A stretch of DNA of 64,000 nucleotides from Thioclava dalianensis (GTDB lineage Bacteria > Pseudomonadota > Alphaproteobacteria > Rhodobacterales > Rhodobacteraceae). The stretch spans positions 124,001 to 188,000 of the forward strand of contig NZ_JHEH01000004.1 of assembly GCF_000715505.1 (NCBI RefSeq), read 5' to 3'. Every line of letters starts with the position of its first letter. Position 1 is the stretch's first letter. Made by a program: the position numbers and the translations under genes. The notes below the pieces were generated by a model. It was given only the letters and a program-made list of their open reading frames with translations. It ran no database searches and had not been told where the DNA came from. This document shows, piece after piece, positions 39,049 through 54,906 of the stretch.

Positions 39049-39059
39049 CTTTGGCCCCC

Positions 39060-39859: not shown

Positions 39860-41200
39860 GTGTCCGACAGCCAGCTCACTCAAGGGATCGTGCCAGGGCG
39901 GCTCGACCCGGAACGCTATTGTACGAATTTCGCCGATCACACCCCGCCGCTGGGCGCGCAAGAGGCCCGGATCGCGGCGGATCGCTGCTATTTCTGCCAT
40001 GATGCGCCATGTATGGAGGCCTGCCCCACCTCGATCGATGTGCCGCTTTTCATTCGGCAAATCTCGACGGGCACACCCGAGGCCGCCGCGAAAACCATTT
40101 TCGCGCAGAACATCCTTGGCGGCATGTGCGCAAGGGTCTGTCCGACCGAGACGTTGTGCGAAGGCGCTTGCGTACGGATGGAATCCGAAGGCGAACCGGT
40201 TGAGATCGGTGCGCTGCAACGCTTCGCGACCGATACGCTGATGGCACGGCAGAGCCATCCCTTCACCCGCGCGGCGAAGACCGGAAAGTCGGTTGCCGTG
40301 GTGGGGGCGGGACCTGCGGGGCTTGCCTGCGCACATGGGCTTGCGATGCGCGGCCATGACGTGACGATCTTTGACGCGCGCCCCAAGCCCGGCGGGCTCA
40401 ACGAATACGGGATCGCGAGCTATAAGGCGCCGGGCGGGTTCGCTCAGGCAGAGGTCGATTGGCTGATGCAGATCGGCGGGATCTCGGTGGTCGCGAATTG
40501 GGAGCTGGGCCGTAAGGGCGATGGTGATCTTGGCGACCTGCTGGCCGATCATGAGGCGGTTTTCCTCGGCATGGGGCTGTCAGGTGTCAACGCGCTTCGG
40601 ATGGAGGGTGAAGACAAGGACGGTATCGTTCCTGCGACCGAATTTATCGCCGAGCTGCGGCAGGCCGACGATCTGGCCAAGCTGCCGATCGGACGGGATG
40701 TCGTGGTGATCGGCGGCGGGATGACGGCAGTGGATGCGGCTGTGCAATCCAAGCTGCTGGGCGCGCTCAACGTCACGCTCGTCTATCGCCGCAGCCGCGC
40801 GCAAATGCCTGCGAGCCTGCATGAGCAGGAGCATGCGCTGACCCATGGCGTGCGGATCATCGAGAATGCGGCCCCTGTGGCGATCCATGGAAATGGCGCG
40901 GTGCGCGAGATCGAGTTCGCCTATACGCAAGAGGGGGCGTCCGGTCTTGAGCGGACCGATGTCACGTTCCGGCTGCCAGCGGATCAGGTCTTCAAGGCGA
41001 TTGGTCAGACGCTGGGCGATATGCCCGAAAAGATCGAAGTGAAGGGCGGCAAGATCGTCGTTGACGGGGCCGGGCGCGCCGCGCCGCGTGTCTGGGCAGG
41101 CGGCGATTGCACCCATGCGGGCGAAGACCTGACGGTCACTGCCGTGGCGCAGGGGCGTGACGCGGCCGTTGAAATCCACCAATTCCTGATGGAGGGCTAA
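39860..41200 (+). CDS. preT: NAD-dependent dihydropyrimidine dehydrogenase, PreT subunit
   Basis: Flavin and Fe-S subunit that links NAD(H) to the PreA catalytic subunit, reducing uracil and thymine. The 446-residue protein has N-terminal cluster cysteines (CYFCHDAPCMEACPTSIDV; GGMCARVCPTETLCEGAC), an FAD motif VAVVGAGPAGLACAHGL, an NAD motif VVIGGGMTAVDAAVQ and VWAGGDCTHAGED near the end. I start at GTG 39860 (VSDSQLTQGIV), preceded by GGGAG at the right distance; an ATG-type start further upstream adds residues unlike the family. First gene of the preTA operon; preA follows after three bases. Confidence 0.94.
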   Translation: MSDSQLTQGIVPGRLDPERYCTNFADHTPPLGAQEARIAADRCYFCHDAPCMEACPTSIDVPLFIRQISTGTPEAAAKTIFAQNILGGMCARVCPTETLCEGACVRMESEGEPVEIGALQRFATDTLMARQSHPFTRAAKTGKSVAVVGAGPAGLACAHGLAMRGHDVTIFDARPKPGGLNEYGIASYKAPGGFAQAEVDWLMQIGGISVVANWELGRKGDGDLGDLLADHEAVFLGMGLSGVNALRMEGEDKDGIVPATEFIAELRQADDLAKLPIGRDVVVIGGGMTAVDAAVQSKLLGALNVTLVYRRSRAQMPASLHEQEHALTHGVRIIENAAPVAIHGNGAVREIEFAYTQEGASGLERTDVTFRLPADQVFKAIGQTLGDMPEKIEVKGGKIVVDGAGRAAPRVWAGGDCTHAGEDLTVTAVAQGRDAAVEIHQFLMEG

Positions 41201-41203
41201 GAC

Positions 41204-42502
41204 ATGGCCGATCTGCGTTCTGAATTCATCGGGATCAAATCCCCCAATCCGTTCTGGCTGGCCTCCGCGCCGCCCACCGACAAGGAATATAACGTCCGTC
41301 GCGCTTTTGAGGCGGGCTGGGGCGGCGTCGTTTGGAAAACGCTCGGCGCCGAGGGGCCGCCCGTGGTCAATGTGAACGGCCCGCGCTATGGCGCGATCTA
41401 TGGGGCCGACCGGCGGCTGCTGGGGCTCAACAATATCGAGCTGATCACCGACCGCCCGCTCGAGGTGAATCTGCGCGAGATGACGATGGTCAAGCGTGAC
41501 TATCCGGATCGTGCGCTCATCGCCTCGATCATGGTGCCCTGCGAGGAGGAGGCGTGGAAAGCGATCCTGCCCCGTGTCGAGGAGACCGGCGCCGATGGGA
41601 TCGAGCTGAATTTCGGCTGCCCGCATGGGATGGCCGAACGCGGGATGGGCTCGGCCGTGGGGCAGGTGCCCGAATATATCGAGATGGTGACCCGCTGGTG
41701 TAAGCAATATTCCAATATGCCGGTGATCGTGAAGCTCACGCCCAATATCACCGATATTCGCAAACCCGCGCGTGCGGCCAAGGCCGGGGGCGCAGATGCG
41801 GTCAGCCTGATCAACACGATCAACTCGATCACTTCGGTGGATCTGGATGATTTTGCACCCGAACCCACGATTGACGGCAAAGGCACGCATGGCGGCTATT
41901 GCGGGCCTGCAGTGAAGCCCATCGCGCTCAATATGGTGGCCGAGATCGCGCGCGACCCGGAGACAGCTGGCTTGCCGATCTCTGGTATCGGTGGGGTGAC
42001 GACCTGGCGCGACGCGGCGGAATTCCTAGCGCTTGGCGCGGGGAACGTGCAGGTCTGCACGGCGGCCATGACCTATGGGTTCAAGGTCGTGCAGGAAATG
42101 ATCTCGGGCCTGTCGGATTACATGGATCGCAAAGGGTTTGTTTCGACCTCCGAGCTGGTGGGGCGTGCCGTGCCCAATGTCACGGACTGGCAATATCTCA
42201 ATCTGGGATATGTGACCAAGGCCGAGATCAAGCAGGACGACTGTATCAAATGCGGGCGCTGCTATGCGGTATGCGAGGATACCTCACATCAGGCCATCGA
42301 CATGAGTGCGGATCGGGTATTCACCGTGAAGGACGAGGAATGCGTCGCGTGCAACTTGTGTGTCGATGTCTGTCCGGTCGAATGCATCACGATGCGCAAG
42401 CTTGAACCGGGTGAAACCGATCTGCGCACTGGTGAGACGGTTGGCGGCTACAACAACTGGACCCAACACCCGAACAACCCGAGTGCAACGGCTGCAGAGT
42501 AA
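41204..42502 (+). CDS. preA: NAD-dependent dihydropyrimidine dehydrogenase, PreA subunit
   Basis: Catalytic subunit for the reduction of uracil/thymine to the 5,6-dihydro form. The 432-residue protein is an FMN-binding dihydroorotate dehydrogenase-like barrel (residues about 1-310) with ELNFGCPHGMAERGMG, whose Cys-Pro-His region fits the family active site, and INSITSVDLDDF. Two C-terminal [4Fe-4S] ferredoxin motifs follow (CIKCGRCYAVCEDTSH; CVACNLCVDVCPVECI). It follows preT by three bases and begins the reductive pyrimidine pathway completed by hydA, hyuC and the aminotransferase downstream. Confidence 0.96.
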   Translation: MADLRSEFIGIKSPNPFWLASAPPTDKEYNVRRAFEAGWGGVVWKTLGAEGPPVVNVNGPRYGAIYGADRRLLGLNNIELITDRPLEVNLREMTMVKRDYPDRALIASIMVPCEEEAWKAILPRVEETGADGIELNFGCPHGMAERGMGSAVGQVPEYIEMVTRWCKQYSNMPVIVKLTPNITDIRKPARAAKAGGADAVSLINTINSITSVDLDDFAPEPTIDGKGTHGGYCGPAVKPIALNMVAEIARDPETAGLPISGIGGVTTWRDAAEFLALGAGNVQVCTAAMTYGFKVVQEMISGLSDYMDRKGFVSTSELVGRAVPNVTDWQYLNLGYVTKAEIKQDDCIKCGRCYAVCEDTSHQAIDMSADRVFTVKDEECVACNLCVDVCPVECITMRKLEPGETDLRTGETVGGYNNWTQHPNNPSATAAE

Positions 42503-42537
42503 GGTCTAGCGCGCAGAGTGATGCGTGACATTTGGCG

Positions 42538-42565
42538 CGCGCCCCGGGGGGCACTTCGGGGCGCG
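42538..42565. terminator. Hairpin between preA and a converging hypothetical gene
   Basis: CGCGCCCCG (42538-42546) pairs perfectly with CGGGGCGCG (42557-42565) over ten bases. It begins 36 bases after the preA stop and touches the stop of the gene on the other strand. There is no T-run. Confidence 0.5.
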
Positions 42566-43135
42566 TCAGCGTGTTACGTCCAGCTGTGCCGTGCCGGAAT
42601 CGCTGAGCTGTCGCCAGGCGCGTTCGGCCATCGCCGGTGTTTCATCAGCGGTGACTTGCGGACGCTCTGGTGCATCATCTTGCAGGTTTTCCGTCTCTTT
42701 CGGCGCCGCTGGGGCGGAGGCTTCAACCGGGGCTTGGTCTATCTCATTTGATTGGGGGAGAGGCGCAGGCGGATCCAGCGCCCGGGCGGCGGCGGCCTCA
42801 AGCGGGCTGACTTCGAATGTTGGCTTCGGGCCGACCAGCGCATCCGGGTCTGGCCGTGACTTCGGCGTCGGGCGGGGTGATGCCTCGGGAACTGCGCCAC
42901 CATACCCTGGCGGATCAGTGCGATTGTGCCGGGCGGCCGAGAGCGCGCCGATTAACCGGGCTGTTTGAGCGCGATCTCCGCTCTCAGGAGTGTCGACATC
43001 GGCCCGCAAGCCGCTGCCCATTTGGGATCCCGCGCCTGCCGCTTCGACACGGCTGGCCGGGGAGACCTTTGTCGTCGGCGGCGCCATCAGGGGCGACCAA
43101 CCGATCTGTGGCCAAAGCGCCGAAATCCGATCCAT
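42566..43135 (-). CDS. Hypothetical Pro/Ala-rich protein
   Basis: A 189-residue open frame I cannot assign to a family. It starts MDRISALWPQIGWSPLMAPP with AGAGG and GGAG upstream. The first 25 residues look ordered, and the rest is rich in Pro, Ala, Glu and Ser with several PAP/PQ/APxxP stretches, suggesting disorder. No signal peptide or membrane helix is visible. It converges on preA and precedes the rutR-like gene on the same strand. Codon use is like its neighbours, so it is probably real. Confidence 0.5.
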   Translation of the reverse strand: MDRISALWPQIGWSPLMAPPTTKVSPASRVEAAGAGSQMGSGLRADVDTPESGDRAQTARLIGALSAARHNRTDPPGYGGAVPEASPRPTPKSRPDPDALVGPKPTFEVSPLEAAAARALDPPAPLPQSNEIDQAPVEASAPAAPKETENLQDDAPERPQVTADETPAMAERAWRQLSDSGTAQLDVTR

Positions 43136-43291
43136 CTCCAATCCTCTTATAGATCCACTATCAGACGAGTCTGCGCCCCGAATCTTACTCAAAGGTGAAC
43201 AATTGAAAATTTTTCTGGAGCCGGGGGAGGGCATGCGGGGCGCGACGTGTCGGCCCGCGATCTTTGGTCTATGGCGGCAGTCGTCGTGGCC

Positions 43292-43942
43292 TCAGGGGGC
43301 CAGAAGGCGCTCGAACAGCATGTCGAGAAACTGGCCCGCCCCTTCGAACGGATCGGCTTTAGGTCCAAGCACGGCGCGGACCTGAACGTCGAAATCGGCA
43401 TAGTGCTGGGTCAGCGCCCAGATCGAGAAGATCAGGTGATGCGGATCGACCGGCGCGATCTTTCCCGCGGCACTCCAGTCGCGGATCACCTCTGCCTTGG
43501 CATCGACCAGCTCTTTCAACTCGTCGCCAAGCGTGTCGCTGAGCCGCGGCGCGCCTTGCAGCATCTCATTGGCAAAGAGCCGACTTTCGCGCGGCATATC
43601 CCGGCTCATTTGCAGCTTGCGGCGCACATAACCCATCAACTCGCTGCGCGGATCGCCCTGCGGGTTCAGCGCGCGCAGAGGGGCAAGCCAAATTTCGAGC
43701 AACCCGCCCATTAAAGCGACATGTATCGCTTCTTTGGAGGGGAAGTAATAGAGAAGGTTCGGCTTGCTGAGCCCGGCCTCCACAGCGATTTGATCGAGCG
43801 TGGCGCCGCGAAACCCATGCGCGGAGAACACTTCAAGCGCTGCCTCAAGGATCTTGCGGCGGTTCAGCTTTTGTATGCGTGTCAACGGCTTATCCTGCTC
43901 GTTTGCCGCGCCGGCCTGTGCTGGATGTCCCGTGTCTTTCAC
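43292..43942 (-). CDS. rutR: RutR-like TetR-family regulator of pyrimidine catabolism
   Basis: DNA-binding repressor expected to sense uracil or thymine. The 216-residue protein has an N-terminal TetR helix-turn-helix (GATLDQIAVEAGLSKPNLLY, then YFPSKEAIH) and a C-terminal domain close to E. coli RutR: EIWLAPLRAL, ANEMLQGAPRLSD and DPHHLIFSIWALTQHYADF. It is divergent from the aminotransferase gene, and the gap holds a perfect TGACC-N4-GGTCA palindrome (44071-44086), the form of the known RutR operator. A second RutR-type regulator is encoded at 47258-47926. Confidence 0.88.
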   Translation of the reverse strand: MKDTGHPAQAGAANEQDKPLTRIQKLNRRKILEAALEVFSAHGFRGATLDQIAVEAGLSKPNLLYYFPSKEAIHVALMGGLLEIWLAPLRALNPQGDPRSELMGYVRRKLQMSRDMPRESRLFANEMLQGAPRLSDTLGDELKELVDAKAEVIRDWSAAGKIAPVDPHHLIFSIWALTQHYADFDVQVRAVLGPKADPFEGAGQFLDMLFERLLAP

Positions 43943-44070
43943 ATTTTTTCTCCCAATCTAGAGGGATTAAATCCGAAACCGTTGTGCGGATCAATCACAA
44001 CGGGGCGCGTGGGGGTGAAAAGCGCGCAGAGGACGTGCTTGACTGGCTTTTTGGCTGTGCTAGCGTGACC

Positions 44071-44086
44071 CTGACCAATTGGTCAG
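44071..44086. promoter_or_regulatory. RutR-type operator CTGACCAATTGGTCAG
   Basis: A perfect 16-bp palindrome in the rutR-like/aminotransferase gap. It matches the reported E. coli RutR consensus TTGACCA-N2-TGGTCAA in its 14 central bases. It lies 53 bases before the aminotransferase start and 129 bases from the regulator start, so it can control both genes. Confidence 0.8.
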
Positions 44087-44138
44087 ATCGCTTATGCCGA
44101 TCCCGTCATGACCGGGGTCGCCCGACCGGAGACATCCC

Positions 44139-45464
44139 ATGGCCCTCGACCGCAAGACCCCCAACGACCTCAATGCATTCTGGATGCCGTTCACCGCGAA
44201 CCGCCAGTTCAAGAAGAACCCGCGTATGTTCGTGGCTGCCAAGGATATGCATTACACGACCTCGGACGGGCGGCAGGTGCTGGACGGGACGGCAGGTCTG
44301 TGGTGCTGCAATGCCGGGCATTGCCGCCCCAAGATCACCGAGGCGATCCAGAAGCAGGCGGGCGAGATGGATTACGCGCCCGCGTTCCAGATGGGCCACC
44401 CGATTGCGTTCGAGCTGGCCAACCGTCTGATCGATGTGGCGCCCGACGGGATGGAGCATGTCTTCTACACCAATTCCGGCTCGGAATCGGTCGAGACCGC
44501 GCTGAAACTCGCCATCGCTTATCACCGTGCGCGGGGTGACGGGGCGCGGACCCGTCTGATTGGTCGCGAGCGCGGCTATCACGGCGTGAACTTCGGCGGT
44601 ATCTCGGTGGGCGGCATTGTCACAAACCGCAAGGTCTTTGGACCGCTGGTGCCGGGCGTCGATCACATGCCGCACACCCACCTTCCCGATCAAAACCGGT
44701 ATTCCAAGGGGCAGCCCGAGCATGGTGCGCATCTGGCAGATGAGCTGGAGCGGATTGTGGCGCTGCACGGGGCCGAGACGATTGCAGCCGTGATCGTGGA
44801 GCCGATGGCGGGTTCGACCGGCGTGCTGCTGCCGCCCAAGGGCTATCTGCAAAAGCTGCGCGAGATCACGCGCAAGCACGGCATCTTGCTGATCTTCGAC
44901 GAGGTGATCACGGGCTTCGGTCGTCTGGGCGCGGCCTTTGCCGCTCAGCATTACGGCGTAGTGCCCGATCTGATGACCACGGCCAAGGGCCTGACCAATG
45001 GCGTGATCCCGATGGGGGCTGTGATGTGCACGGCAGAGGTGCATGATGCCTTCATGAACGGCCCCGAGCATATGATCGAGCTGTTCCACGGCTATACCTA
45101 TTCGGGTAACCCGATTGCCTCGGCCGCCGCCATCGCCACGCTCGACACCTATAAGGAAGAGGGGCTGTTCGAGCGCGCAGCCGAGCTTGCGCCCTATTGG
45201 CAGGATGCGCTGCATTCGCTCAAAGGCACGCGCCACGTGATCGACATCCGCAACGAGGGTCTCATCGGCGCGATCGAGTTGGAGCCGATTGCCGGTGAGC
45301 CGACCAAGCGCGCCTTTTCGGCCTTCCTCAAGGCCTATGAGAAGGGCATCCTGATCCGCACCACGGGCGATATCATCGCGATGAGCCCGCCGCTGATCAT
45401 CTCGAAGGAGCAGATCGACGAACTGATCGGGACGCTCAAGGACGTGCTCGAAACATTGGATTAA
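44139..45464 (+). CDS. Class III beta-alanine (omega-amino acid):pyruvate aminotransferase
   Basis: PLP enzyme that moves the amino group of beta-alanine to pyruvate, giving malonate semialdehyde. The 441-residue protein has the class III landmarks: LDGTAGLWCCNAGHCRP, FYTNSGSESVETALKLA, IFDEVITGFGRLGAAF and TTAKGLTNGVIPMGAVM, where the Lys of AKG binds PLP. The opening FWMPFTANRQFKKNPRMFV is typical of beta-alanine:pyruvate and omega-amino acid transaminases. Assignment to beta-alanine rests on the pathway around it: beta-alanine is the product of HyuC on uracil-derived substrate. CGGAG precedes the ATG. A RutR-type operator lies upstream. Confidence 0.9.
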   Translation: MALDRKTPNDLNAFWMPFTANRQFKKNPRMFVAAKDMHYTTSDGRQVLDGTAGLWCCNAGHCRPKITEAIQKQAGEMDYAPAFQMGHPIAFELANRLIDVAPDGMEHVFYTNSGSESVETALKLAIAYHRARGDGARTRLIGRERGYHGVNFGGISVGGIVTNRKVFGPLVPGVDHMPHTHLPDQNRYSKGQPEHGAHLADELERIVALHGAETIAAVIVEPMAGSTGVLLPPKGYLQKLREITRKHGILLIFDEVITGFGRLGAAFAAQHYGVVPDLMTTAKGLTNGVIPMGAVMCTAEVHDAFMNGPEHMIELFHGYTYSGNPIASAAAIATLDTYKEEGLFERAAELAPYWQDALHSLKGTRHVIDIRNEGLIGAIELEPIAGEPTKRAFSAFLKAYEKGILIRTTGDIIAMSPPLIISKEQIDELIGTLKDVLETLD

Positions 45465-45511
45465 AACGCACCCTGCGGTGGGTCACAGACCTGCCGCGCA
45501 TCTGTGAAATC

Positions 45512-45541
45512 AACGCCCGGGCGGATCGCTCGGGCGTTTTT
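45512..45541 (+). terminator. Intrinsic terminator of the aminotransferase gene
   Basis: AACGCCCG (45512-45519) pairs with CGGGCGTT (45531-45538), with an inner GCG/CGC helix, followed by a T-run at 45537-45541. It begins 48 bases after the stop and just before the converging VOC gene. Confidence 0.88.
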
Positions 45542-45546
45542 CGGTC

Positions 45547-46128
45547 TCAATAGGGGTCTTTGGCGGAGCGATCCGTGGAGAGCGATTGCTGCGAGCGCGC
45601 GACGATCCGCTCGATGGCATCGGCCAGATGGACCTCGCCAATGGACTCGTCGCCCGCAGCCACGCGGATCCGGTGGGCTTCGATCATCACCTCCGCATGA
45701 GACGATCCACGCGGTGGCTCGAATTTATAGGCCGCAAGCTCAATCAGAAAGCCGAGCGGGTCCTTGAAATAGATCGAATCCATGAAGCCGCGATCCTTCA
45801 CGCCCGAATGTTTGATCCCGCGCGCATCGAGCCGGGTGACCACTTGGCGATGGCTGGCAAGGCTGACGGAAAAGGCGATGTGATGCACGCAGCCCGGATC
45901 GGTGGGCGTGCGGTCATGCACCGGCTTGCGGGTCTCGTCGGTGAAAATGGTGATCAACCGCCCGTCACCGGGATCAAAATAGAGATGCCCCTCATCGGGA
46001 TTGTCGAGATTGGGCTGATCGAAGATGAAGGGCATCCCGAGCACCCCTTCCCAGAAATCGATCGTGCTCTGCCGGTCCGCGCCGGTCAGCGTGATGTGAT
46101 GAACGCCTTGGGACTGGATCTTGCGCAT
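45547..46128 (-). CDS. VOC-superfamily (glyoxalase/dioxygenase-like) protein
   Basis: A 193-residue protein with paired VOC domain elements: GVHHITLTGADRQSTIDFW, then CVHHIAFSVS, and a Glu in LGFLIELAAYKF complete the 2-His-1-Glu metal site of this superfamily. Ring-cleaving dioxygenases and lyases share the fold. Substrate is unknown. ATG 46128 follows GGAGG. It lies on the opposite strand to the pyrimidine genes and may not belong to that pathway. Confidence 0.8.
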   Translation of the reverse strand: MRKIQSQGVHHITLTGADRQSTIDFWEGVLGMPFIFDQPNLDNPDEGHLYFDPGDGRLITIFTDETRKPVHDRTPTDPGCVHHIAFSVSLASHRQVVTRLDARGIKHSGVKDRGFMDSIYFKDPLGFLIELAAYKFEPPRGSSHAEVMIEAHRIRVAAGDESIGEVHLADAIERIVARSQQSLSTDRSAKDPY

Positions 46129-46306
46129 TTGAGGCCTCCCTATCATGTCTGCCCACAACAATAGCCGCTCTCGCTGTTGGGTCGAGGCGCAAGACCTGTG
46201 CAGTCTTGCGCGAAACCCCGCCCGAGCCTGTCCATCTGGGCATTCTGGGGGCTTGTTGCGCGCTGGGCCTTCGCTATCGTGCGGCTCGAAACGAAAGGGG
46301 TTTCCA

Positions 46307-47254
46307 ATGCTGCGTTACCTGGTTTTGATCGCGGTCCTCATGCCGGTCCCCGCGCTGGCCGAGCTGGTTTCTTGCGAGACGTCGATTCGTGGCACGCAAT
46401 ATGCCTTTCGCTACGACCCGGACAATGCCGCGCTCAAGGAAAGCCGGTCGCTGCGCGAGAAGATGTTTGGCGGCAAGGGCGATGTGACCTGTCCGGCGCT
46501 GGTGACGCTGCGCGCGCTCACGCCCGAGCTGGACGATGCCGGGCGGGCGCCGTTCTGTCTGCAATGGGATACGAAGGACAAGACCTATCTGGGCTATGAT
46601 CAGGGTCCGCGCGATGCGCTGGGTCTTTGCAAGGAACCCTCGAAGAGTTTCTGTCAGCGCATCGAGGGCACGGCAGAGGCCGCCAAGGGGTTGGGCGACA
46701 AGGCGGGCGATCTTGCATCGGGGGCGGCGGGGGCCGTCATCGGCGACAAGCTGGGCAACAAGATCGTGCATGACACGTCAAGCAACCTGCGCGACAAGCT
46801 TCTCAAGGCAGGCTTTGGGATGTTGACGGCGGCCTCACCGCCCGCCTTGATGGCCACGGCGGTGATCGTGGGCGGCACGGTTTATGTCTGTTCGGACGCA
46901 GGCGCGGAGGGCGCGGCGGCGGAAGCCGCCCCTGAGCCCAAGCTGGAGCATGGCGCCGAGATCAGCGACGGGGCCGAGCTGTTGGGCTCGAAACTGCCCA
47001 AGAACCATTTGCCTTCCGGGGTGAGCGGTGCGCCGGTCGGGTCGGTCGTCGAGACGCCTTTGAAACCAGAGGCCGGGGATCAGAAAGCAGCGGATCCGGA
47101 GGGCACGGTGCCTGCCGATCCTCAAAGCCCCGCCAAGGCGCAAGATCCGCCCGTCGGGCCCTCAAGTGCGCAACCCGATCAGAGCGCTGCGCCTGCCCAA
47201 GGCTCTGATCCCGCCCCGAGTGCTGCGCCTGACCCGACCACGCCCGCGCAGTAG
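46307..47254 (+). CDS. Hypothetical secreted protein with glycine-rich segment and Pro-rich tail
   Basis: A 315-residue protein with a signal peptide (MLRYLVLIAVLMPVPALA). The mature part has six cysteines, a glycine-rich amphipathic segment (LGDKAGDLASGAAGAVIGDK), and a hydrophobic stretch near TAVIVGGTVYVC. The last 100 residues are a Pro/Ala/Ser/Asp-rich low-complexity tail that should be disordered. I recognise no family. AAAGGGG lies about six bases before the ATG. It sits between the VOC gene and the second rutR-like gene, convergent to the latter with three bases between stops. Confidence 0.7.
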   Translation: MLRYLVLIAVLMPVPALAELVSCETSIRGTQYAFRYDPDNAALKESRSLREKMFGGKGDVTCPALVTLRALTPELDDAGRAPFCLQWDTKDKTYLGYDQGPRDALGLCKEPSKSFCQRIEGTAEAAKGLGDKAGDLASGAAGAVIGDKLGNKIVHDTSSNLRDKLLKAGFGMLTAASPPALMATAVIVGGTVYVCSDAGAEGAAAEAAPEPKLEHGAEISDGAELLGSKLPKNHLPSGVSGAPVGSVVETPLKPEAGDQKAADPEGTVPADPQSPAKAQDPPVGPSSAQPDQSAAPAQGSDPAPSAAPDPTTPAQ

Positions 47255-47257
47255 CGC

Positions 47258-47926
47258 CTAGAGCACGCCGATCCCGCGCAGTACGATGGTCTTGACGCTC
47301 GTCTTGGCCGCTTCCCATTGCGCGTCGGACAAGGGGTCCCCGCCGTTGAGCGTGTCAATCTGGTGGCTGAAATCGGCGTAATGCTGGGTCGTGGCCCAGA
47401 GCATATACATCAGGTGATGCGGGTCGGTTTGCGCCATCTTGCCTTCGGAAATCCAGCGCCGGATCACCGCGCAGCGCCCCTCGGTCCAGTCGCGCAATGT
47501 GGTCTCGAGGTAATCTTGGATGACCGGCGCGCCATGCATCACCTCGCTGGCCCAGACCTTGGAGCCGTTGGGATGATGGCGCGAGATTTCCATCTTGGCA
47601 TCGATATAGGCCCCGATCCCTTCGGTGGGGCCGGCTGCGCCATCAAAGACATCGGCAGCCTCGAGCCAGATGTTGAAAATCCGCTCGACGACGCGGCGAT
47701 AGAGCGCCTCTTTGGTATCGAAATAATAGTGCAGGTTGGCTTTTGGCAGACCCGCCAGATCGGCAATGAGCTGCATCGTCGCGCCACCGAAGCCTGCCTC
47801 GGCAAAGACCGTTTCTGCCGCAGTCAGGATCGTCTCTTCGGTTTCGCGGCGCGCCTTCGCGCGGCTCCCGCCGTTCGGTCGCCTATTTTTTAGGCTATTG
47901 CTGTTCTTCTCGTCTTGCACGCGCAT
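47258..47926 (-). CDS. Second RutR-like TetR-family regulator
   Basis: A 222-residue TetR repressor. Residues 1-27 form a basic, Asn-rich tail, followed by the helix-turn-helix (GATMQLIADLAGLPKANLHY, YFDTKEALYR). The C-terminal half resembles RutR: EVMHGAPVIQDYLE, DPHHLMYMLWATTQHYADF. It differs from the rutR-like protein at 43292 in the recognition-helix region (PKANLHYYF versus SKPNLLYYF), so the two are paralogues. ATG 47926 is the first in-frame codon with a sensible product; the longer open frame upstream is a shadow of hyuC. It is divergent from hyuC; two TGACC-N4-GGTCA sites lie between. Confidence 0.88.
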   Translation of the reverse strand: MRVQDEKNSNSLKNRRPNGGSRAKARRETEETILTAAETVFAEAGFGGATMQLIADLAGLPKANLHYYFDTKEALYRRVVERIFNIWLEAADVFDGAAGPTEGIGAYIDAKMEISRHHPNGSKVWASEVMHGAPVIQDYLETTLRDWTEGRCAVIRRWISEGKMAQTDPHHLMYMLWATTQHYADFSHQIDTLNGGDPLSDAQWEAAKTSVKTIVLRGIGVL

Positions 47927-47943
47927 TCCGCCGGATTTTTTGT

Positions 47944-47957
47944 TGACCGAATGGTCA
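47944..47957. promoter_or_regulatory. RutR-type operator 1 in the rutR-like 2/hyuC gap
   Basis: TGACC-GAAT-GGTCA with flanking T and G. Arms match the operator at 44071-44086 and the third site at 47978-47991. It lies 18 bases from the divergent regulator start. Confidence 0.75.
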
Positions 47958-47977
47958 GGACATGGCCCACTCCAACC

Positions 47978-47991
47978 TGACCATACGGTCA
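47978..47991. promoter_or_regulatory. RutR-type operator 2 in the rutR-like 2/hyuC gap
   Basis: TGACC-ATAC-GGTCA, extending to a perfect CTGACC/GGTCAG pair. Its centre is 34 bases from the first site, roughly three helical turns, so two dimers could bind on the same face. It lies 55 bases before the hyuC start. Confidence 0.78.
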
Positions 47992-48046
47992 GATCAAGAT
48001 TCGTCGCAAGAGGGCAAAGCCCCACCAGCCGACAGGGAGTTCTACA

Positions 48047-49297
48047 ATGCCAGCACCCGGAGAAAACCTCCGTATCAACCCCGACCGTCTTTGGGACAGC
48101 CTGATGGAGATGGCCAAGATCGGCCCGGGCGTCGCGGGGGGGAACAATCGCCAGACCTTGACCGATGCCGATGCCGAAGGCCGCGCGCTGTTTCAATCTT
48201 GGTGCGAGGCCGCTGGCATGACGATGGGCGTTGACACGATGGGCAATATGTTCGCGACGCGGGCGGGCGAGGACCCGGACGCGCTGCCGGTCTATATGGG
48301 CAGCCATCTCGACACGCAGCCCACGGGCGGGAAATATGACGGTGTGCTGGGTGTGCTGGGCGCGCTGGAGGCCGTGCGCTCGATGAATGATCTCGGGATC
48401 AAGACCAAACATCCGATCGTGGTGACCAACTGGACCAATGAGGAAGGCACACGGTTTGCGCCTGCCATGCTGGCCTCGGGCGTCTTTGCGGGCGTGCACA
48501 CGCAGGATTGGGCCTATGGCAAGACCGATGCCGAGGGGAACACCTTTGGCGATGAGTTGAAGCGCATCGGCTGGGTCGGCGATGAAACGGTCGGCGCGCG
48601 CAAGATGCATGCGATGTTCGAGCTGCATATCGAGCAAGGCCCGATCCTTGAGGCTGAAGGTAAGGATATTGGCGTGGTCACCCATGGCCAAGGCCTGAGC
48701 TGGACGCAGGTCACGATCACCGGCAAGGACAGCCATACCGGATCGACCCCGATGCCGATGCGCAAGAATGCGGGCCTCGGCATGGCGCGGGTGCTCGAAC
48801 TTGTGGATGAGATCGCCTGGTCGCATAAACCGGATGCCGTGGGCGCTGCCGGTCACATCGATGTCTATCCCAATTCGCGCAATGTGATCCCGGGCAAGGT
48901 CGTGTTTACCGTCGATTTCCGCTCGCCCGATCTGGCGGTGATCGAGGATATGGAGGCGCGTCTCAAGACCGGCGCGCGCGAGATCTGCGACGAGATGGGG
49001 CTGAGCGTCGAATTTGAGAAAAGCGGGGGATTTGATCCCGTGACCTTCGATCCGGCCTGTGTGAGCGCTGTGCGCAATGCCGCCGAGCGGCTGGGCTATA
49101 GCCATCGTGATATCATTTCAGGCGCGGGCCACGATGCCTGCTGGATCAATCAGGTCGCACCGACCGCGATGATCATGTGCCCCTGCGTGGACGGGCTGAG
49201 CCATAATGAGGCCGAAGAGATCTCAAAGGATTGGGCTGCAGCGGGCACGGATGTGCTGTTCCACGCAGCGCTTGAGACGGCCGAAATCGTGAGCTGA
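48047..49297 (+). CDS. hyuC: Zn-dependent N-carbamoyl-beta-amino acid hydrolase (HyuC/beta-ureidopropionase type)
   Basis: M20-family amidohydrolase that splits N-carbamoyl-beta-alanine to beta-alanine, CO2 and ammonia. The 416-residue protein has metal-binding signatures SHLDTQPTGGKYDGVLGVL (His, Asp), TNEEGTRFAPAML (Glu), and HIEQGPILE; SGAGHDACWINQVAP supplies the last histidine. ATG 48047 is preceded by AGGGAG. hydA follows in the same direction, separated by 83 bases holding a copy of the intergenic element. Two RutR-type operators are upstream. The position in a preTA-hydA locus favours beta-ureidopropionase over hydantoin-type carbamoylase. Confidence 0.93.
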   Translation: MPAPGENLRINPDRLWDSLMEMAKIGPGVAGGNNRQTLTDADAEGRALFQSWCEAAGMTMGVDTMGNMFATRAGEDPDALPVYMGSHLDTQPTGGKYDGVLGVLGALEAVRSMNDLGIKTKHPIVVTNWTNEEGTRFAPAMLASGVFAGVHTQDWAYGKTDAEGNTFGDELKRIGWVGDETVGARKMHAMFELHIEQGPILEAEGKDIGVVTHGQGLSWTQVTITGKDSHTGSTPMPMRKNAGLGMARVLELVDEIAWSHKPDAVGAAGHIDVYPNSRNVIPGKVVFTVDFRSPDLAVIEDMEARLKTGAREICDEMGLSVEFEKSGGFDPVTFDPACVSAVRNAAERLGYSHRDIISGAGHDACWINQVAPTAMIMCPCVDGLSHNEAEEISKDWAAAGTDVLFHAALETAEIVS

Positions 49298-49306
49298 ACG
49301 GCGCGG

Positions 49307-49355
49307 CCGGGGGCTCTGCCCCCGGACCCCCGGGATATTTCTATCAAGAGGAAGG
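49307..49355 (+). repeat. Rhodobacterales-type intergenic element, copy 4 (hyuC-hydA gap)
   Basis: CCGGGGGC-TCT-GCCCCCGG (49307-49325) is a perfect 8-bp hairpin, followed by ACCCCCGGGATATTTCTATC at 49326-49345 and the tail CAAGAGGAAG to 49354. It lies within an apparent operon, just ahead of the hydA ribosome site GGGAG. Confidence 0.85.
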
Positions 49356-49380
49356 CCAGGCCTTTCGAAGGGAGAACAGC

Positions 49381-50832
49381 ATGACCACAGTCATCAAGAA
49401 CGGAACCATCGTCACCGCGGATCTGACCTATAAGGCGGATGTCTTGATCGAGGGCGGGCAGATCATTGAGATCGGTCGGGATCTGAAGGGCGATGAGACG
49501 CTCGATGCGACCGATTGTTTTGTGATGCCGGGCGGGATCGATCCGCATACCCATCTCGAGATGCCGTTCATGGGCACCTATTCGGCGGATGATTTCGAGA
49601 GCGGCACCCGTGCAGCCTTGGCGGGCGGTACCACGATGGTGGTGGATTTCGCATTGCCCGCGCCCGGTGAGGGGCTGCTCGATGCGCTCAAGAAATGGGA
49701 CAACAAATCGACCCGCGCGCATTGCGATTATTCCTTTCACATGGCGATCACATGGTGGGACAAGCAGGTCTTTGACGAGATGAAGGCCGTGACCGAGCGC
49801 GGCATCAACACCTTCAAGCATTTCCTCGCCTATAAGGGCGCCTTGATGGTCAATGATGACGAGCTTTATTCCAGCTTCAAGCGCTGTGCCGAGCTGGGGG
49901 CGATCCCGCTTGTCCATGCCGAGAATGGCGATGTGGTGGCCGAACTGTCAGCCAAGCTGCTGGCCGATGGTAATAACGGGCCGGAGGGGCACGCCTATTC
50001 GCGCCCACCCCAGGTCGAGGGGGAGGCCACCAACCGCGCGATCATGATCGCCGATATGGCGGGCGTGCCGCTTTATGTCGTGCATACGTCTTGCGAGGAG
50101 AGCCACGAGGCGATCCGGCGCGCGAAACTCGCGGGCAAGCGGGTCTGGGGTGAGCCGCTGATCCAGCATCTGACGCTCGATGAAAGCGAATATTTCGACA
50201 AGGATTGGGACCATGCCGCGCGCCGCGTCATGAGCCCGCCTTTCCGCAACAAGCAGCATCAGGACAGCCTGTGGAACGGGTTGTCTTCGGGCACGCTGTC
50301 TTGCGTGGCGACCGATCACTGCGCCTTCACCACCGATCAGAAACGCTATGGCGTGGGCGATTTCACCAAGATCCCGAATGGGACAGGGGGGCTTGAGGAC
50401 CGCCTGCCGATGCTCTGGACTTACGGGGTTGGCACGGGGCGGCTGACGCCCAACGAATTCGTGGCTGTGACCTCGACCAATATCGCCAAGATCCTCAATA
50501 TCTATCCCAAGAAGGGCGCGGTGCTTGTGGGCGCGGATGCCGATCTGGTGGTTTGGGATCCCAAAGCGTCCAAAGTGATCAGCGCGAAGGATCAGCAATC
50601 GGCGATTGATTACAACGTCTTCGAGGGCAAAGAGGTGACGGGTCTGCCGCGCTACACGCTCTCGCGTGGCGTCGTGGCTTGGGCCGATGGCAAGATCCAG
50701 ACGAAAGAGGGCCATGGCCAGTTCGTGCCGCGCGAGGCAGGAACGCCCGTCACCAAGGCGCTCTCGACCTGGAAAGAGCTGACCGCGCCCCGTCCGATCC
50801 AGCGCAGCGGCATTCCGGCGAGCGGGGTCTGA
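49381..50832 (+). CDS. hydA: Dihydropyrimidinase (D-hydantoinase family)
   Basis: Opens dihydrouracil/dihydrothymine to the N-carbamoyl-beta-amino acid. The 483-residue amidohydrolase has the binuclear zinc ligands: GGIDPHTHLEMPF (two His), a carboxylated Lys in FKHFLAYKGALM, His in LVHAENGD, His in YVVHTSCEESHE and Asp in VATDHCAFTTDQK. The C-terminal NGTGGLEDRLPM segment supports the dihydropyrimidinase/hydantoinase branch. GGGAG precedes the ATG by seven bases. It lies between hyuC and the VOC-ABC gene set. Confidence 0.96.
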   Translation: MTTVIKNGTIVTADLTYKADVLIEGGQIIEIGRDLKGDETLDATDCFVMPGGIDPHTHLEMPFMGTYSADDFESGTRAALAGGTTMVVDFALPAPGEGLLDALKKWDNKSTRAHCDYSFHMAITWWDKQVFDEMKAVTERGINTFKHFLAYKGALMVNDDELYSSFKRCAELGAIPLVHAENGDVVAELSAKLLADGNNGPEGHAYSRPPQVEGEATNRAIMIADMAGVPLYVVHTSCEESHEAIRRAKLAGKRVWGEPLIQHLTLDESEYFDKDWDHAARRVMSPPFRNKQHQDSLWNGLSSGTLSCVATDHCAFTTDQKRYGVGDFTKIPNGTGGLEDRLPMLWTYGVGTGRLTPNEFVAVTSTNIAKILNIYPKKGAVLVGADADLVVWDPKASKVISAKDQQSAIDYNVFEGKEVTGLPRYTLSRGVVAWADGKIQTKEGHGQFVPREAGTPVTKALSTWKELTAPRPIQRSGIPASGV

Positions 50833-50833
50833 G

Positions 50834-51262
50834 ATGGTCTCGTCCCCGCCCAAGAGCCCGGGCGTTCTCGAAGCCGCCGTCTATGTCACTGATCTCGACG
50901 CTACGGAGGCGTTCTATAGCGGGCTGCTCGGGCTCGAAGTGATCACGAGGGTCGAGGGGCGGCATGTGTTCTTTCGTTGCGGCGAGAGCGTGATCCTCAC
51001 CTTTATCGCCAGCGCGACACAAATACCGCCCGCGCCCGATGCGCGTCTGCCCGTGCCGCCCCATGGGGCGACCGGGCCGGGCCATGTCTGTATCGCAAGC
51101 GATGCACAGACGCTTGAAGACTGGGAAACTTACTTGAAAGACAATGATGTAGAGATCGAAGCCGATTTCACCTGGCCGGTCGGGGCACGCTCGATCTATC
51201 TGCGCGATCCGGCGGGCAACAGCGTTGAGATCGCCGATCGTGGCTTGTGGAGGCGCGGATGA
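50834..51262 (+). CDS. Small VOC-family protein in the pyrimidine operon
   Basis: A 142-residue single-chain VOC (glyoxalase/bleomycin resistance fold) protein: LEAAVYVTDLDATEAFYSGL, GHVCIASDAQTLEDWE and RDPAGNSVEIADRG with the final Glu. The start ATG 50834 is one base after the hydA stop, and its end overlaps the ABC ATPase by four bases, so it is translated as part of the operon. Its role is unknown; the tight coupling suggests it acts on a pathway intermediate or byproduct, but that is inference. Confidence 0.8.
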   Translation: MVSSPPKSPGVLEAAVYVTDLDATEAFYSGLLGLEVITRVEGRHVFFRCGESVILTFIASATQIPPAPDARLPVPPHGATGPGHVCIASDAQTLEDWETYLKDNDVEIEADFTWPVGARSIYLRDPAGNSVEIADRGLWRRG

Positions 51263-52047
51263 CTGCGACACCGATCATTCAGGCCAAGGGGCTTGAGCTG
51301 ACCTTTCAGACCAATGACGGGCCGGTCCACGCGCTCAAGGATATCGATCTGGATATCGAGGCGGGCGAGTTCGTCAGTTTCATCGGCCCCTCGGGCTGCG
51401 GCAAGACGACCTTCCTGCGCTGTATCGCAGCGCTTGAGACGCCGACGGGTGGCGCGCTGAGCGTGAAGGGCATGAGTGCCGAGGCCGCGCGGCAAAAGCG
51501 TTCCTACGGCTATGTCTTTCAGGCCGCCGGGCTTTATCCGTGGCGCACGATTGCCGCCAATGTGCGCTTGCCGCTCGAGATCATGGGCTATAGCCGCGCC
51601 GAGCAGGTCAAGCGCGTGGAAGACGTGCTGTCGCTGGTGGACCTTGAGGGCTTTGGCAAGAAATTCCCCTGGCAACTGTCGGGCGGGATGCAGCAACGGG
51701 CGAGCATTGCCCGGGCGCTGGCCTTCGATGCCGATATCTTGCTGATGGACGAGCCGTTCGGCGCGCTCGACGAGATCGTGCGCGACAAGCTCAATGAAGA
51801 GCTGCTCAAACTGTGGGAGCGCACGGGCAAGACCATCGGCTTTGTCACCCATTCGATCCCGGAGGCGGTCTATCTGAGCACCAAGATCGTGGTGATGTCG
51901 CCCCGTCCGGGGCGGATCTACGAGGTGATCGACAGCCCGTTGCCGCGCGGCGCGCGCCCCTTGGACATTCGCGACAGCGAGGCGTTCTTGCAGGTGGCTC
52001 ATCGTGTTCGCGAGGGCCTGAGGGCGGGGCATGCCTATGAAGATTGA
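51259..52047 (+). CDS. ABC transporter ATP-binding protein (nitrate/sulfonate/taurine/HMP type)
   Basis: ATPase of the TauB/SsuB/ThiZ-like group, 262 residues. It has Walker A GPSGCGKTT, the Q-loop in YVFQAAGLYPWRTIAANVRL, signature LSGGMQQRASIARAL, Walker B ILLMDEPFGALDE and switch histidine FVTHSIPEAVYLS. The VFQ...LYPWR and DEPFGALDE segments are typical of this importer subfamily. It starts inside the VOC stop (ATGA overlap). Two permeases and a binding protein follow, making a complete importer. Confidence 0.92.
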   Translation: MTATPIIQAKGLELTFQTNDGPVHALKDIDLDIEAGEFVSFIGPSGCGKTTFLRCIAALETPTGGALSVKGMSAEAARQKRSYGYVFQAAGLYPWRTIAANVRLPLEIMGYSRAEQVKRVEDVLSLVDLEGFGKKFPWQLSGGMQQRASIARALAFDADILLMDEPFGALDEIVRDKLNEELLKLWERTGKTIGFVTHSIPEAVYLSTKIVVMSPRPGRIYEVIDSPLPRGARPLDIRDSEAFLQVAHRVREGLRAGHAYED

Positions 52048-52070
52048 GCGCATCATTCGCACCGGGGCGG

Positions 52071-52147
52071 GGGGGCTGTCTGCCCCCAGCGGGCCAGGCT
52101 TTGGCCTTGCCCGCTCCCCCCGAGGATATTTCGGTCAAGAGGAAGGG
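52071..52147 (+). repeat. Rhodobacterales-type intergenic element, copy 5 (inside the ABC operon)
   Basis: GGGGGC/GCCCCC hairpin at 52071-52087, a second GCGGGC/GCCCGC hairpin at 52089-52114, then CCCCCCGAGGATATTTCGG with the tail CAAGAGGAAGG (52136-52146). The core differs by one base (GAGG for GGG). The tail lies 9-10 bases before the permease ATG at 52156 and can serve as its Shine-Dalgarno. Confidence 0.8.
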
Positions 52148-52155
52148 GGCGCGCG

Positions 52156-53016
52156 ATGAAGTCGATAGCCCCCGTTCTGAGCGTACTCGCGGCGATTCTC
52201 GTGATCTGGTACGGCGCTACGGTCTTGCTCAACAGCAAATGGACCTATGATCAGGCGGCGAGGGCGGGCGAGAGTGTCAGCATCAGCCATCTTCTCACCG
52301 ACACGATGAGCCAGAAGCGCCCCGTTCTGCCCGCGCCGCATCAGGTGGCGCAGGGCTTGTGGGATGGTTTGTTCGGGCAGCGCTTCACCTCCAAGCGCAG
52401 TCTTGTCTTCCACGCATGGATCACGCTGTCGGCCACGATGGTGGGCTTTGCGCTGGGCACCGGGCTGGGGATCCTGCTCGCGGTGGGGATCACCCATAGC
52501 CGGGCCATGGATCTGTCGGTGATGCCTTGGGCGATTGCGAGCCAGACCGTGCCGATCCTCGCGATTGCGCCGATGGTGATCGTGGTGCTGGCAAGCCTTG
52601 GCGTCACGGGGCTTTTGCCCAAGGCGCTGATCGCGGCCTATCTGAATTTCTTTCCCGTCCTCGTGGGGATGGTGAAGGGATTGCGTGCGCCCGATGCGAT
52701 GCAGCTTGATCTTCTCAAGACCTATAATGCGAGCCGGTCGGGGACGCTTTGGAAGCTGCGCCTGCCATCGTCGATGCCCTATCTGTTCGCCTCGCTGAAA
52801 GTTGGCGTGGCGGCCAGTCTGGTGGGCACGATCGTGGCCGAGCTGCCCGCAGGGGCCACGCAAGGGCTCGGCGCACGGCTGCTGTCGGGAAGCTATTACG
52901 GGCAAACTGTGCAGATCTGGGCTGCGCTGTTTACCGCAGCTGGGCTTGCGGCGATCCTCGTGATCGCGGTGGGCGTGATCGAGCGGGTGGTGCTGCGTCG
53001 AATGGGGATGGCATGA
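52156..53016 (+). CDS. ABC transporter permease 1
   Basis: A 286-residue inner-membrane permease with one N-terminal helix and a five- to six-helix BPD_transp_1 core. ASQTVPILAIAPMVIVVLAS and the EAA-loop region (DLLKTYNASRSGTLWKLRLP) mark the ThiX/TauC/SsuC-like family. The ribosome site is provided by the 3' end of the intergenic element upstream. It overlaps permease 2 by four bases. Confidence 0.9.
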   Translation: MKSIAPVLSVLAAILVIWYGATVLLNSKWTYDQAARAGESVSISHLLTDTMSQKRPVLPAPHQVAQGLWDGLFGQRFTSKRSLVFHAWITLSATMVGFALGTGLGILLAVGITHSRAMDLSVMPWAIASQTVPILAIAPMVIVVLASLGVTGLLPKALIAAYLNFFPVLVGMVKGLRAPDAMQLDLLKTYNASRSGTLWKLRLPSSMPYLFASLKVGVAASLVGTIVAELPAGATQGLGARLLSGSYYGQTVQIWAALFTAAGLAAILVIAVGVIERVVLRRMGMA

Positions 53017-53864
53017 TGGGTTGGTTGATCTTCGCAGTGGTGTTCTGGATTGCGGCATGGGGGGCCAACGCGTGGCTCGCACAGCGGCACGGGCATCAGA
53101 AATGGGCGCAATTCACGATCCCCGCGCTGTTTGGCATCTCGATCCTCTTGCTCTGGGAGGGGCTCGTTCTCGGGCTTGAGATCAGCCCGGTGATCCTGCC
53201 CGCACCCAGCCAGATCGCGCAGAGCTTCGCCGCGTCGGGGCCGATCCTGCGGGAGGATTTCGTCCAGACCATTCTGAAAGGCGCGCTGTCGGGCTATCTG
53301 ATGGGCTGTGCGGCCGCCGTGGTCGTGGCGGTGCTGATCGATCGCTCGCCGTTCTTGCAGCGCGGACTGTTGCCGGTGGGCAATTTCGTGGCCGCGTTGC
53401 CGATCGTCGGGATCGCGCCGATCCTTGTGATGTGGTTTGGCTTTGACTGGCAATCCAAGGCGGCGGTCGTCGTGGTGATGGTGTTCTTCCCGGTTCTCGT
53501 GAACATGGTGGCGGGGTTGGCTGCGACCGATCAATTGCAGCGTGATCTGATGGCGACCTATTCGGCGAGCTATTGGCAGGGTCTGTTCAAGATGCGTCTG
53601 CCCGCCGCGATGCCGTTTTTGTTCAACGGGCTCAAGATCGCCACGACGCTGGCGCTGATCGGGGCCATCGTTGCTGAATTTTTCGGCAGCCCGACACGCG
53701 GGATGGGCTTTCGGATATCGACCGCCGTGGGGCAGCTTGATTTGCCGCTCGTCTGGTCGGAGATTACCGTTGCGGCCCTCGCGGGCTCGGGCTTCTACGG
53801 GGCGGTCGCGCTCATCGAGAAGCTGGTGACATTCTGGCACCCGTCGCAACGCGCACGAGCCTGA
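53013..53864 (+). CDS. ABC transporter permease 2
   Basis: A 283-residue permease, paralogous to the preceding one, with VGNFVAALPIVGIAPILVMW and the EAA-loop DLMATYSASYWQGLFKMRLP. ATG 53013 (or 53016, the sequence is ATGATG) overlaps the first permease stop. Two different permease genes are usual in one group of NMT1/THI5-type importers. The binding protein gene follows after about 50 bases. Confidence 0.9.
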   Translation: MMGWLIFAVVFWIAAWGANAWLAQRHGHQKWAQFTIPALFGISILLLWEGLVLGLEISPVILPAPSQIAQSFAASGPILREDFVQTILKGALSGYLMGCAAAVVVAVLIDRSPFLQRGLLPVGNFVAALPIVGIAPILVMWFGFDWQSKAAVVVVMVFFPVLVNMVAGLAATDQLQRDLMATYSASYWQGLFKMRLPAAMPFLFNGLKIATTLALIGAIVAEFFGSPTRGMGFRISTAVGQLDLPLVWSEITVAALAGSGFYGAVALIEKLVTFWHPSQRARA

Positions 53865-53916
53865 CGAATAGCGAAAATCCCGGGCGCAAGATCCGGGGCC
53901 AACAGTGGAGAGAGAA

Positions 53917-54906
53917 ATGAAAAAACTGATCGCGGGGCTGAGTGTCAGCCTGGGTCTCATGGCGGGCGCAGCCCAGGCCAACGAAGATGTGACGCTACAG
54001 CTCAAATGGGTGACGCAGGCGCAATTCGCGGGCTATTATGTCGCGCTCGACAAGGGCTATTACAAGGATGCGGGGCTCAATGTCACGATCAAGCCGGGCG
54101 GTCCCGATATCGGGCCTGAGCAGGTGATCGCAGGCGGTGGCGCGGATGTCATCGTCGACTGGATGCCCGCCGCACTGGCTGCGCGCGAAAAAGGCCTGCC
54201 GCTCGTCAATATTGCGCAGCCTTACAAGAAATCGGGCATGATGCTGACCTGTCTGAAGGAAAGCGGCATCAAGACCCCCAAGGACTTCCCCGGTCATACG
54301 CTGGGCGTGTGGTTCTTTGGCAATGAGTATCCTTTCCTGAGCTGGATGGCCCATCTGGGCATCCCGACCGATGGCGGCCCCAATGGCGTGACGGTGCTCA
54401 AGCAGGGCTTCAACGTCGATCCGCTGCTGCAAAAGCAGGCGGCCTGTATCTCAACGATGACCTATAATGAGTATCTTCAGGTGCTCGAGGCCGGGATCAA
54501 GCCCGATCAACTCATCACCTTCAAATATGAGGACGAGGGTGTGGCGACGCTCGAAGACGGTCTTTACGTGATGGAGGATAAGCTCAAGGATCCGGCCTTT
54601 GTCGACACGATGGCGAAATTCGTGAAGGCGTCGATGGAAGGCTGGAAATATGCCGATGCCCATCCCGAGGAGGCCGCTCAAATCGTGCTCGACAATGACG
54701 AGACCGGTGCGCAGACGATGGAGCATCAGGTCGGCATGATGAAGGAAGTCGCCAAGCTGACCGAGGGCACCGATGGCGTGCTTGATCCGGCTGATTACGA
54801 GCGCACAGTCAAGGTGCTGCTGGAAGGTGGTTCGGATCCGGTGATCACCAAGAAGCCCGAAGGCGCATGGACCCATGCCGTCACCGATAAGGCCGGTCTG
54901 AAGTAA
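53917..54906 (+). CDS. NMT1/THI5-family periplasmic substrate-binding protein
   Basis: Periplasmic solute receptor of 329 residues with a signal peptide (KKLIAGLSVSLGLMAGAAQA). LQLKWVTQAQFAGYYVALDK is the hallmark of the NMT1/THI5-like (ThiY/RibY) fold, and GGGADVIVDWMPAAL forms part of the pyrimidine-type pocket region. Relatives bind formylaminopyrimidine, riboflavin or other ring compounds. Located at the end of the uracil catabolic operon, it most likely binds uracil, thymine, dihydrouracil or a related pyrimidine. ATG 53917 is preceded by GGAGAGAG; GTG 53905 is an alternative. Confidence 0.88.
   Translation: MKKLIAGLSVSLGLMAGAAQANEDVTLQLKWVTQAQFAGYYVALDKGYYKDAGLNVTIKPGGPDIGPEQVIAGGGADVIVDWMPAALAAREKGLPLVNIAQPYKKSGMMLTCLKESGIKTPKDFPGHTLGVWFFGNEYPFLSWMAHLGIPTDGGPNGVTVLKQGFNVDPLLQKQAACISTMTYNEYLQVLEAGIKPDQLITFKYEDEGVATLEDGLYVMEDKLKDPAFVDTMAKFVKASMEGWKYADAHPEEAAQIVLDNDETGAQTMEHQVGMMKEVAKLTEGTDGVLDPADYERTVKVLLEGGSDPVITKKPEGAWTHAVTDKAGLK

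Follow-up and report, generated by a model that had tools for sequence, protein, structure and literature searches.

Candidate operators for two RutR-like regulators at a reductive pyrimidine degradation locus of Thioclava dalianensis

RutR of Escherichia coli is a TetR family protein that controls the oxidative RutABCDEFG pathway, with a palindromic site between the regulator and its catabolic operon. Its uracil-contact residues are W77, Y97, W167, Q171, and Q179' (PMC10891134). For the reductive route, a RutR-like repressor of pyrimidine catabolism, PydR of Pseudomonas putida, was published in 2012. RegPrecise holds computed RutR regulons for pyrimidine catabolism from 68 genomes in 13 taxonomic groups, with motifs that vary by taxon (PMC5343134). 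Here, we analyzed a 64,000-nucleotide stretch (the window) of contig NZ_JHEH01000004.1 from Thioclava dalianensis, a relative of the marine roseobacters (genome of 4.18 Mb in 98 contigs), in which genes of the reductive route share positions 39860-54906 with two RutR-like genes, tetR1 and tetR2, and with copies of the palindrome TGACC-N4-GGTCA. We consider it very likely that this locus is a regulon for reductive uracil and thymine degradation, held off by two RutR family repressors that would read these palindromes and a divergent operator before preT.

Compared with the E. coli system, the T. dalianensis regulators belong to the same TetR family, carry the same PF08362 ligand domain, and have five identical uracil-contact residues, and a palindromic site again lies between regulator and catabolic genes. 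Whereas E. coli RutR serves the oxidative route, reductive-route genes adjoin here, and a profile search of the T. dalianensis genome returned no RutA above the cut-off (best score, 53 bits versus 498). E. coli has one RutR; T. dalianensis has two paralogues, neither of which reaches the TIGR03613 cut-off. In E. coli, the rutA-rutR gap comes no closer to TGACC-N4-GGTCA than 2 mismatches, and a 330-base stretch spanning the preT start contains no element of the type that we describe below for preT (best match, 6 mismatches). The likeness to P. putida PydR is one of described function and lies in the linkage to reductive-route genes and in the predicted repression, here with candidate operators at hyuC and the aminotransferase (AT) gene and a divergent element at preT. 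When plasmids were searched with the two regulators, the RutR-like relatives recovered were scattered, and none among the matches listed bore the name PydR.

The pathway and regulator genes are as follows (window coordinates):

39860..41200, + strand: preT, NAD-dependent dihydropyrimidine dehydrogenase small subunit; GTG start, Fer4_20 and Pyr_redox_2 domains, adjoins preA
41204..42502, + strand: preA, dihydropyrimidine dehydrogenase catalytic subunit (NF006183, 726 bits; cut-off 335)
43292..43942, - strand: tetR1, RutR-like repressor 1 with a probable PydR-type function (TIGR03613, 232 bits; cut-off 368); PF08362; best solved structure 3LOC
44139..45464, + strand: AptA-like omega (beta-alanine) AT (NF052567, 772 bits; cut-off 500)
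47258..47926, - strand: tetR2, RutR-like repressor 2, separate clade (TIGR03613, 201 bits; cut-off 368); PF08362; 3LOC
48047..49297, + strand: hyuC, M20 family amidohydrolase, probable substrate N-carbamoyl-beta-alanine (TIGR01879, 391 bits; cut-off 204; NF006769 above cut-off)
49381..50832, + strand: hydA, dihydropyrimidinase (TIGR02033, 586 bits; cut-off 393)

A sequence-only reading of this DNA had placed preT-preA, hydA, hyuC, a beta-alanine-type AT, and an ABC (ATP-binding cassette) importer within the locus and had called the pathway complete. The gene identities were upheld by NCBIfam and Pfam models together with gene context, and the profile matches bear out the route down to malonate semialdehyde. 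PreA, the AptA-type AT, the dihydropyrimidinase, and the hydantoinase/carbamoylase family amidase all scored above curated cut-offs. The identity of preT follows from its Fer4_20 domain, which is domain II of dihydropyrimidine dehydrogenase, and from its position.

Both regulators passed as RutR-like at the domain level, with 166 and 171 bits for the YcdC-like C-terminal domain PF08362 (cut-off 25) and 55 and 49 bits for TetR_N (cut-off 24). In a RutR profile search of the genome, TetR1 (232 bits) and TetR2 (201 bits) stood well apart from the next gene (49 bits), and the best solved relative of both was E. coli RutR, 3LOC (E values of 9e-57 and 2e-44, respectively). The five uracil-contact residues were identical in 174 of 174 aligned sequences (115/115 TetR1 and 59/59 TetR2), the window's pair included. 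With E. coli RutR as the sole root and labels taken from the best tblastn match, a 175-sequence tree placed TetR1 and TetR2 in clades with supports of 0.996 and 1.0, the TetR2 clade having 59 members. The tree parts the clades but gives no date for the duplication. Mean identity to E. coli RutR was 45% for TetR1 and 37% for TetR2, and residues of the DNA-reading region are fixed differently between the clades (51 S/P, 53 P/A, and 56 L/H in E. coli numbering).

A RutR-type palindromic site adjoins both regulator genes, where binding is predicted. The following sites and promoter elements were assigned around the palindromes:

44039..44066, + strand: putative core promoter of the AT gene, TTGACT-N16-TAGCGT, in line with the consensus of relatives
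44072..44085, no strand: candidate operator TGACCAATTGGTCA, downstream of the AT -10 and over the presumed start
47944..47957, no strand: candidate operator 1 TGACCGAATGGTCA; with 47943 it reads TTGACC, the putative hyuC -35
47978..47991, no strand: candidate operator 2 TGACCATACGGTCA, over the presumed hyuC start

As the sequence-only reading had it, these are three exact palindromes, lying in the two gaps where the RutR-like TetR genes diverge from catabolic genes, and the 64-kb window contains no further exact copy. The gaps measure 196 and 120 bp, and base composition predicts 0.00022 and 0.00013 sites in them. At the AT promoter, TTGACT occupies 44039-44044 and TAGCGT occupies 44061-44066, while the putative hyuC -10 is CCCACT at 47966-47971. 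The whole genome contains seven exact copies, four of them outside the locus, so the palindrome does not occur at many unrelated places; the chance expectation is about 4.8 copies per genome (our own arithmetic, from the window's G+C content of 62.5%), and a reversed control pattern gave 0. The outside copies lie near an open reading frame (ORF) resembling a Hint domain, at a contig end, inside trpB (these three judged by eye), and inside a DUF6079 gene. The central N4 follows R-N-N-Y in all three locus sites and in none of the four others. Because the genes at these four copies look unrelated and the copies lack the R-N-N-Y center, the exact palindrome is not spread over a wider regulon in this genome.

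We then compared relatives retrieved through hydA, taking the top 80 out of at least 591 related loci, from Rhodobacterales and some Rhizobiales. Some rows are not independent, as records and genomes overlap (L050 and L133 hold the same promoter), which affects the 57 promoter rows and the 92 preT loci used below. Of 77 gaps separating a RutR-like gene from a divergent hyuC or AT gene, 53 contained an exact palindrome and 69 contained one with at most 1 mismatch. The operators hold fixed promoter positions in relatives. When TetR1 faces the AT gene or hyuC with an exact site, the consensus runs CTTGACTG, TGnTAGCGT, and then the operator over the presumed start; this single-site consensus comes from 13 distinct AT and 36 hyuC promoters.

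The arrangement at tetR2 is different, as two sites (at most 1 mismatch each) were found in 8 of 11 TetR2 gaps and in 0 of 66 TetR1 gaps. Across the order, two palindromes 10 to 40 bp apart occurred in 51 of 390 genomes (24 of 139 genera), versus 1 of 390 for a control pattern, and in 49 of those 51 the pair lay between TetR2 and hyuC. Within these 49 loci, the spacer was 19 or 20 bp in 45, a T preceded operator 1 in every case, giving TTGACC, a -35 hexamer, and the center of operator 2 was ATAC or ATAT in 48. On this sequence evidence, the hyuC promoter is likely sandwiched between two operators. TetR1 stood in tandem behind TetR2 in 37 of the loci, with the AT gene between them in 6 (window included), and no TetR1 was seen in the fetched stretch in the other 6. 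Six places where TetR1 lies apart were fetched, and in five it faces the AT gene with a single operator (one of these, L297, is L133, seen earlier). The two double-site genomes outside the TetR2-hyuC setting (L157 and L167, which are genomes G375 and G239) showed no uracil degradation genes and one distant TetR family match each in the 20-kb stretch fetched.

The sequence-only reading had listed the three TGACC palindromes correctly and had left preTA, which has no TGACC palindrome, without a site. Searching the window strictly for TGACC-N4-GGTCA gave no match upstream of preT. Scanning with a weight matrix built from the operators of relatives was the only approach that revealed a fourth, divergent element:

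39782..39799, + strand: candidate divergent preTA operator TTTTACCACTTGATAAAA, 60 bp before preT, conserved in relatives

This element holds a putative -35, TTGATA (39791-39796), with a putative weak -10 at about 39813-39818. A match at 39689-39702 (TGACCGCCCGGAAA) was dropped as the preT site, since the element conserved in relatives is that at 39782-39799. Upstream of preT, the operator weight matrix gave a median of 6.8, versus -7.2 in random windows. The consensus of the element is TTTTACC-R-N-TT-GATAAAA; TTACCNNTTGATAA itself preceded preT in 80 of 92 loci, with variants in the rest, and a relaxed form that also covers TGACC variants was found in 92/92 preT loci versus 62/920 control windows. 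In the T. dalianensis genome itself, 39782-39799 is the only place within 1 mismatch of the element.

Across the order, the exact 17-base form occurred in 76 of 149 genomes, once in each (control, 0). The 30 copies that were fetched as loci all lie 50 to 89 bp before preT on the same strand; beyond these, positions were examined for those among the other 46 that fell in previously retrieved loci. None of the 14 genomes without preA had the exact element. There were 58 other genomes with preA and RutR, of which 53 were scanned: 49 had the element within 2 mismatches and all 53 had it within 4. In the remaining five, all from one genus, TGACC-type sites take that position. TGACC-type or mixed sites such as TGACCGTGCGGTCA and TTTTACCATCTGGTCAG occupy the preT position in some genomes, and mixed forms like the latter, along with TTACC half-sites in some hyuC operators, link the preT element to the RutR motif. 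In a class-wide search, 4 of 289 genomes carried the exact element, two of them in the window's family; the two outside the family have no preT within 1.5 kb on either side of it.

Genomes that lack the regulator offered a further comparison. Defining absence as no RutR-like match at an E value of 1e-25, we found 20 such genomes among 380, 6 of which have preA (five genera). Four of these six have lost the preT element (best match, 4 to 6 mismatches), and in a fifth, G174, it is damaged (ACC to AGC, 2 mismatches). The element was present within 2 mismatches in 125 of 134 genomes with preA and RutR versus 2 of 6 without RutR (Fisher P of 0.0006, relatedness ignored). For the three of the six in which hyuC was seen (G174, G357, and G367), the 12 to 19 kb fetched contained no exact palindrome. 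CTTGACTG and a -10-like TAGC element survive at the G174 hyuC and the G367 AT gene, and CTTGACTG survives at the G357 AT gene. Promoter elements stay while operators decay, as expected if RutR-like proteins account for the palindromes. Taken together, the profiles, structures, pocket residues, site conservation, and operator erosion without RutR support the earlier proposal that a RutR-like protein would control the reductive route.

In the model that we propose, by analogy with E. coli RutR, a repressor dimer would bind TGACC-N4-GGTCA and let go once uracil or a close relative fills the pocket. TetR1 would sit on one operator over the AT transcription start, beside its own gene. TetR2 would occupy two operators around the promoter of hyuC, hydA, and the ABC genes, the first covering the -35 and the second the start. 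The weaker, divergent operator over the preTA -35, probably read by TetR1, would put the first enzyme in the same regulon. On pyrimidine buildup, the repressors would leave, and import, ring reduction, ring opening, and transamination would be switched together.

Several observations weigh against this model. Both regulators score below the NCBIfam RutR equivalog cut-offs, at 232 and 201 bits for TIGR03613 (cut-off 368) and 216 and 174 bits for NF011584 (cut-off 230). Eight of the 77 divergent gaps have no site within 1 mismatch. The preT element is rich in A and T and includes a hexamer resembling a -35, and its conservation may therefore be due in part to promoter function; in addition, 35 of 1,000 random windows from the same stretches, windows over the element included, came within 2 mismatches of it. 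Among the genomes in which no RutR-like gene was found, G231 keeps the preT element intact, and palindrome remnants with 2 mismatches persist near the G174 hyuC (between -35 and -10) and the G367 AT gene (at the operator position). At most eight first-look candidates were scored per genome, so the absence of RutR is less firm in G174 (14 candidates) and G367 (12 candidates). Finally, G271, which has no preA and no RutR-like gene found, carries two inverted exact 16-base copies. These copies of TTTACCAATTGATAAA (L264, C4:87937-87973) start 21 bp apart before a GlcD-like ORF (GlcD judged by eye).

Other explanations account for parts of these data. The palindromes might be conserved only as pieces of a core promoter, with TTGACC as the -35, and hyuC operator 1 and the preT element do both hold a -35-like hexamer. 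However, single-operator promoters have a separate conserved -35 and -10 upstream of the palindrome, and the three genomes discussed above keep these elements with the exact palindrome gone, and we regard this explanation as highly improbable. We give just as little credence to the idea that the locus degrades hydantoins and not pyrimidines. Models for the dihydropyrimidinase and hyuC extend to hydantoinase and carbamoylase as well, but preTA and RutR-like regulators lie alongside, both here and in most relatives among the matches listed, and a beta-alanine-type AT is present here and in some relatives.

Harder to set aside, though still unlikely in our judgment, is that some other, unlinked regulator or a special promoter reads the preT element, leaving only the AT gene and hyuC in the RutR-type regulon. 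The preT half-sites (TTTACC/TTTATC) differ from TGACC, G231 retains the element, and the exact form is single in 76 of 76 genomes, so that no autoregulated gene marks its reader. On the other side are the TGACC-type and mixed sites that take the preT position in some genomes, the TTACC half-site of several hyuC operators, and the loss of the element in four and damage in one of the six genomes without a RutR-like gene. It is slightly less doubtful that the two RutR-like proteins are redundant, sharing sites and ligand, with the double operator only tightening repression. They share the core half-site and all five pocket residues, yet they fall into clearly distinct clades whose DNA-reading regions carry fixed differences, and paired sites were found only in TetR2 gaps. 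Equally tentative is our suggestion that an old duplication split the control, with TetR1 taking preTA and the AT gene and TetR2 taking hyuC, hydA, and the ABC genes through the double operator, whose second site is near fixed (TGACCATAC/TGGTCA), and with the repressors answering different pathway ligands or concentrations. If so, uracil entry and ring opening with import would be switched in sequence.

Against the published systems, RutR-like control of the reductive route is not as new as the sequence-only reading suggested, since it was already known from PydR; the layout adds the paralogue pair with its two operator types. As far as we have seen, what is new is a second paralogue paired with a double operator that brackets the promoter, a conserved TetR1 promoter-operator unit, and a divergent preT operator. 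The portion of the RegPrecise account available to us makes no mention of a second paralogue, a double operator, or a preT element (PMC5343134). The titles and abstracts of open-licence literature likewise did not describe the paralogue pair, the double operator, or the preT element.

The remaining genes of the hyuC operon are listed here:

50834..51262, + strand: small VOC/glyoxalase-fold protein (PF00903), matched in 11 of 80 relatives
51247..52047, + strand: ABC transporter ATPase (profile match), adjoins hydA in relatives
52156..53016, + strand: ABC permease 1, kept with the operon in relatives
53016..53864, + strand: ABC permease 2, start approximate
53905..54906, + strand: NMT1/THI5-like substrate-binding protein (PF09084, 134 bits)

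The five solved relatives of the binding protein include 4NMY, the formylaminopyrimidine-binding protein 3IX1, and THI5 enzymes. It is probably a component of a pyrimidine importer, with uracil or thymine as the likely cargo. Other genes are interspersed in the locus or border it. An ORF of 222 amino acids between preA and tetR1 (42566-43234, - strand) has no Pfam match and is 36 to 42% alike in six relatives (L008, L009, L143, L144, L163, and L168). Between the AT block and tetR2, an ORF for a possibly secreted protein (46280-47254, + strand; start set by eye), also with no Pfam match, has matches in L008, L009, L143, and L144 only. A second glyoxalase/VOC-fold gene lies at 45547-46161 (- strand). 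Immediately before the preT element lie genes for biotin carboxylase and a biotin carrier (37705-39554, - strand), transcribed away from it.

Through the reductive route, uracil yields nitrogen and beta-alanine, and in Rhizobium etli its last enzyme supplies beta-alanine for pantothenate (PMC7142369). At the T. dalianensis locus, two RutR paralogues come with exact candidate operators that can be tested, and the relatives in which no RutR-like gene was found form a small natural experiment that helps to tell operator from promoter. The candidate preT operator has drifted so far from the consensus for RutR that searching for the palindrome itself overlooks it, as the sequence-only reading did.

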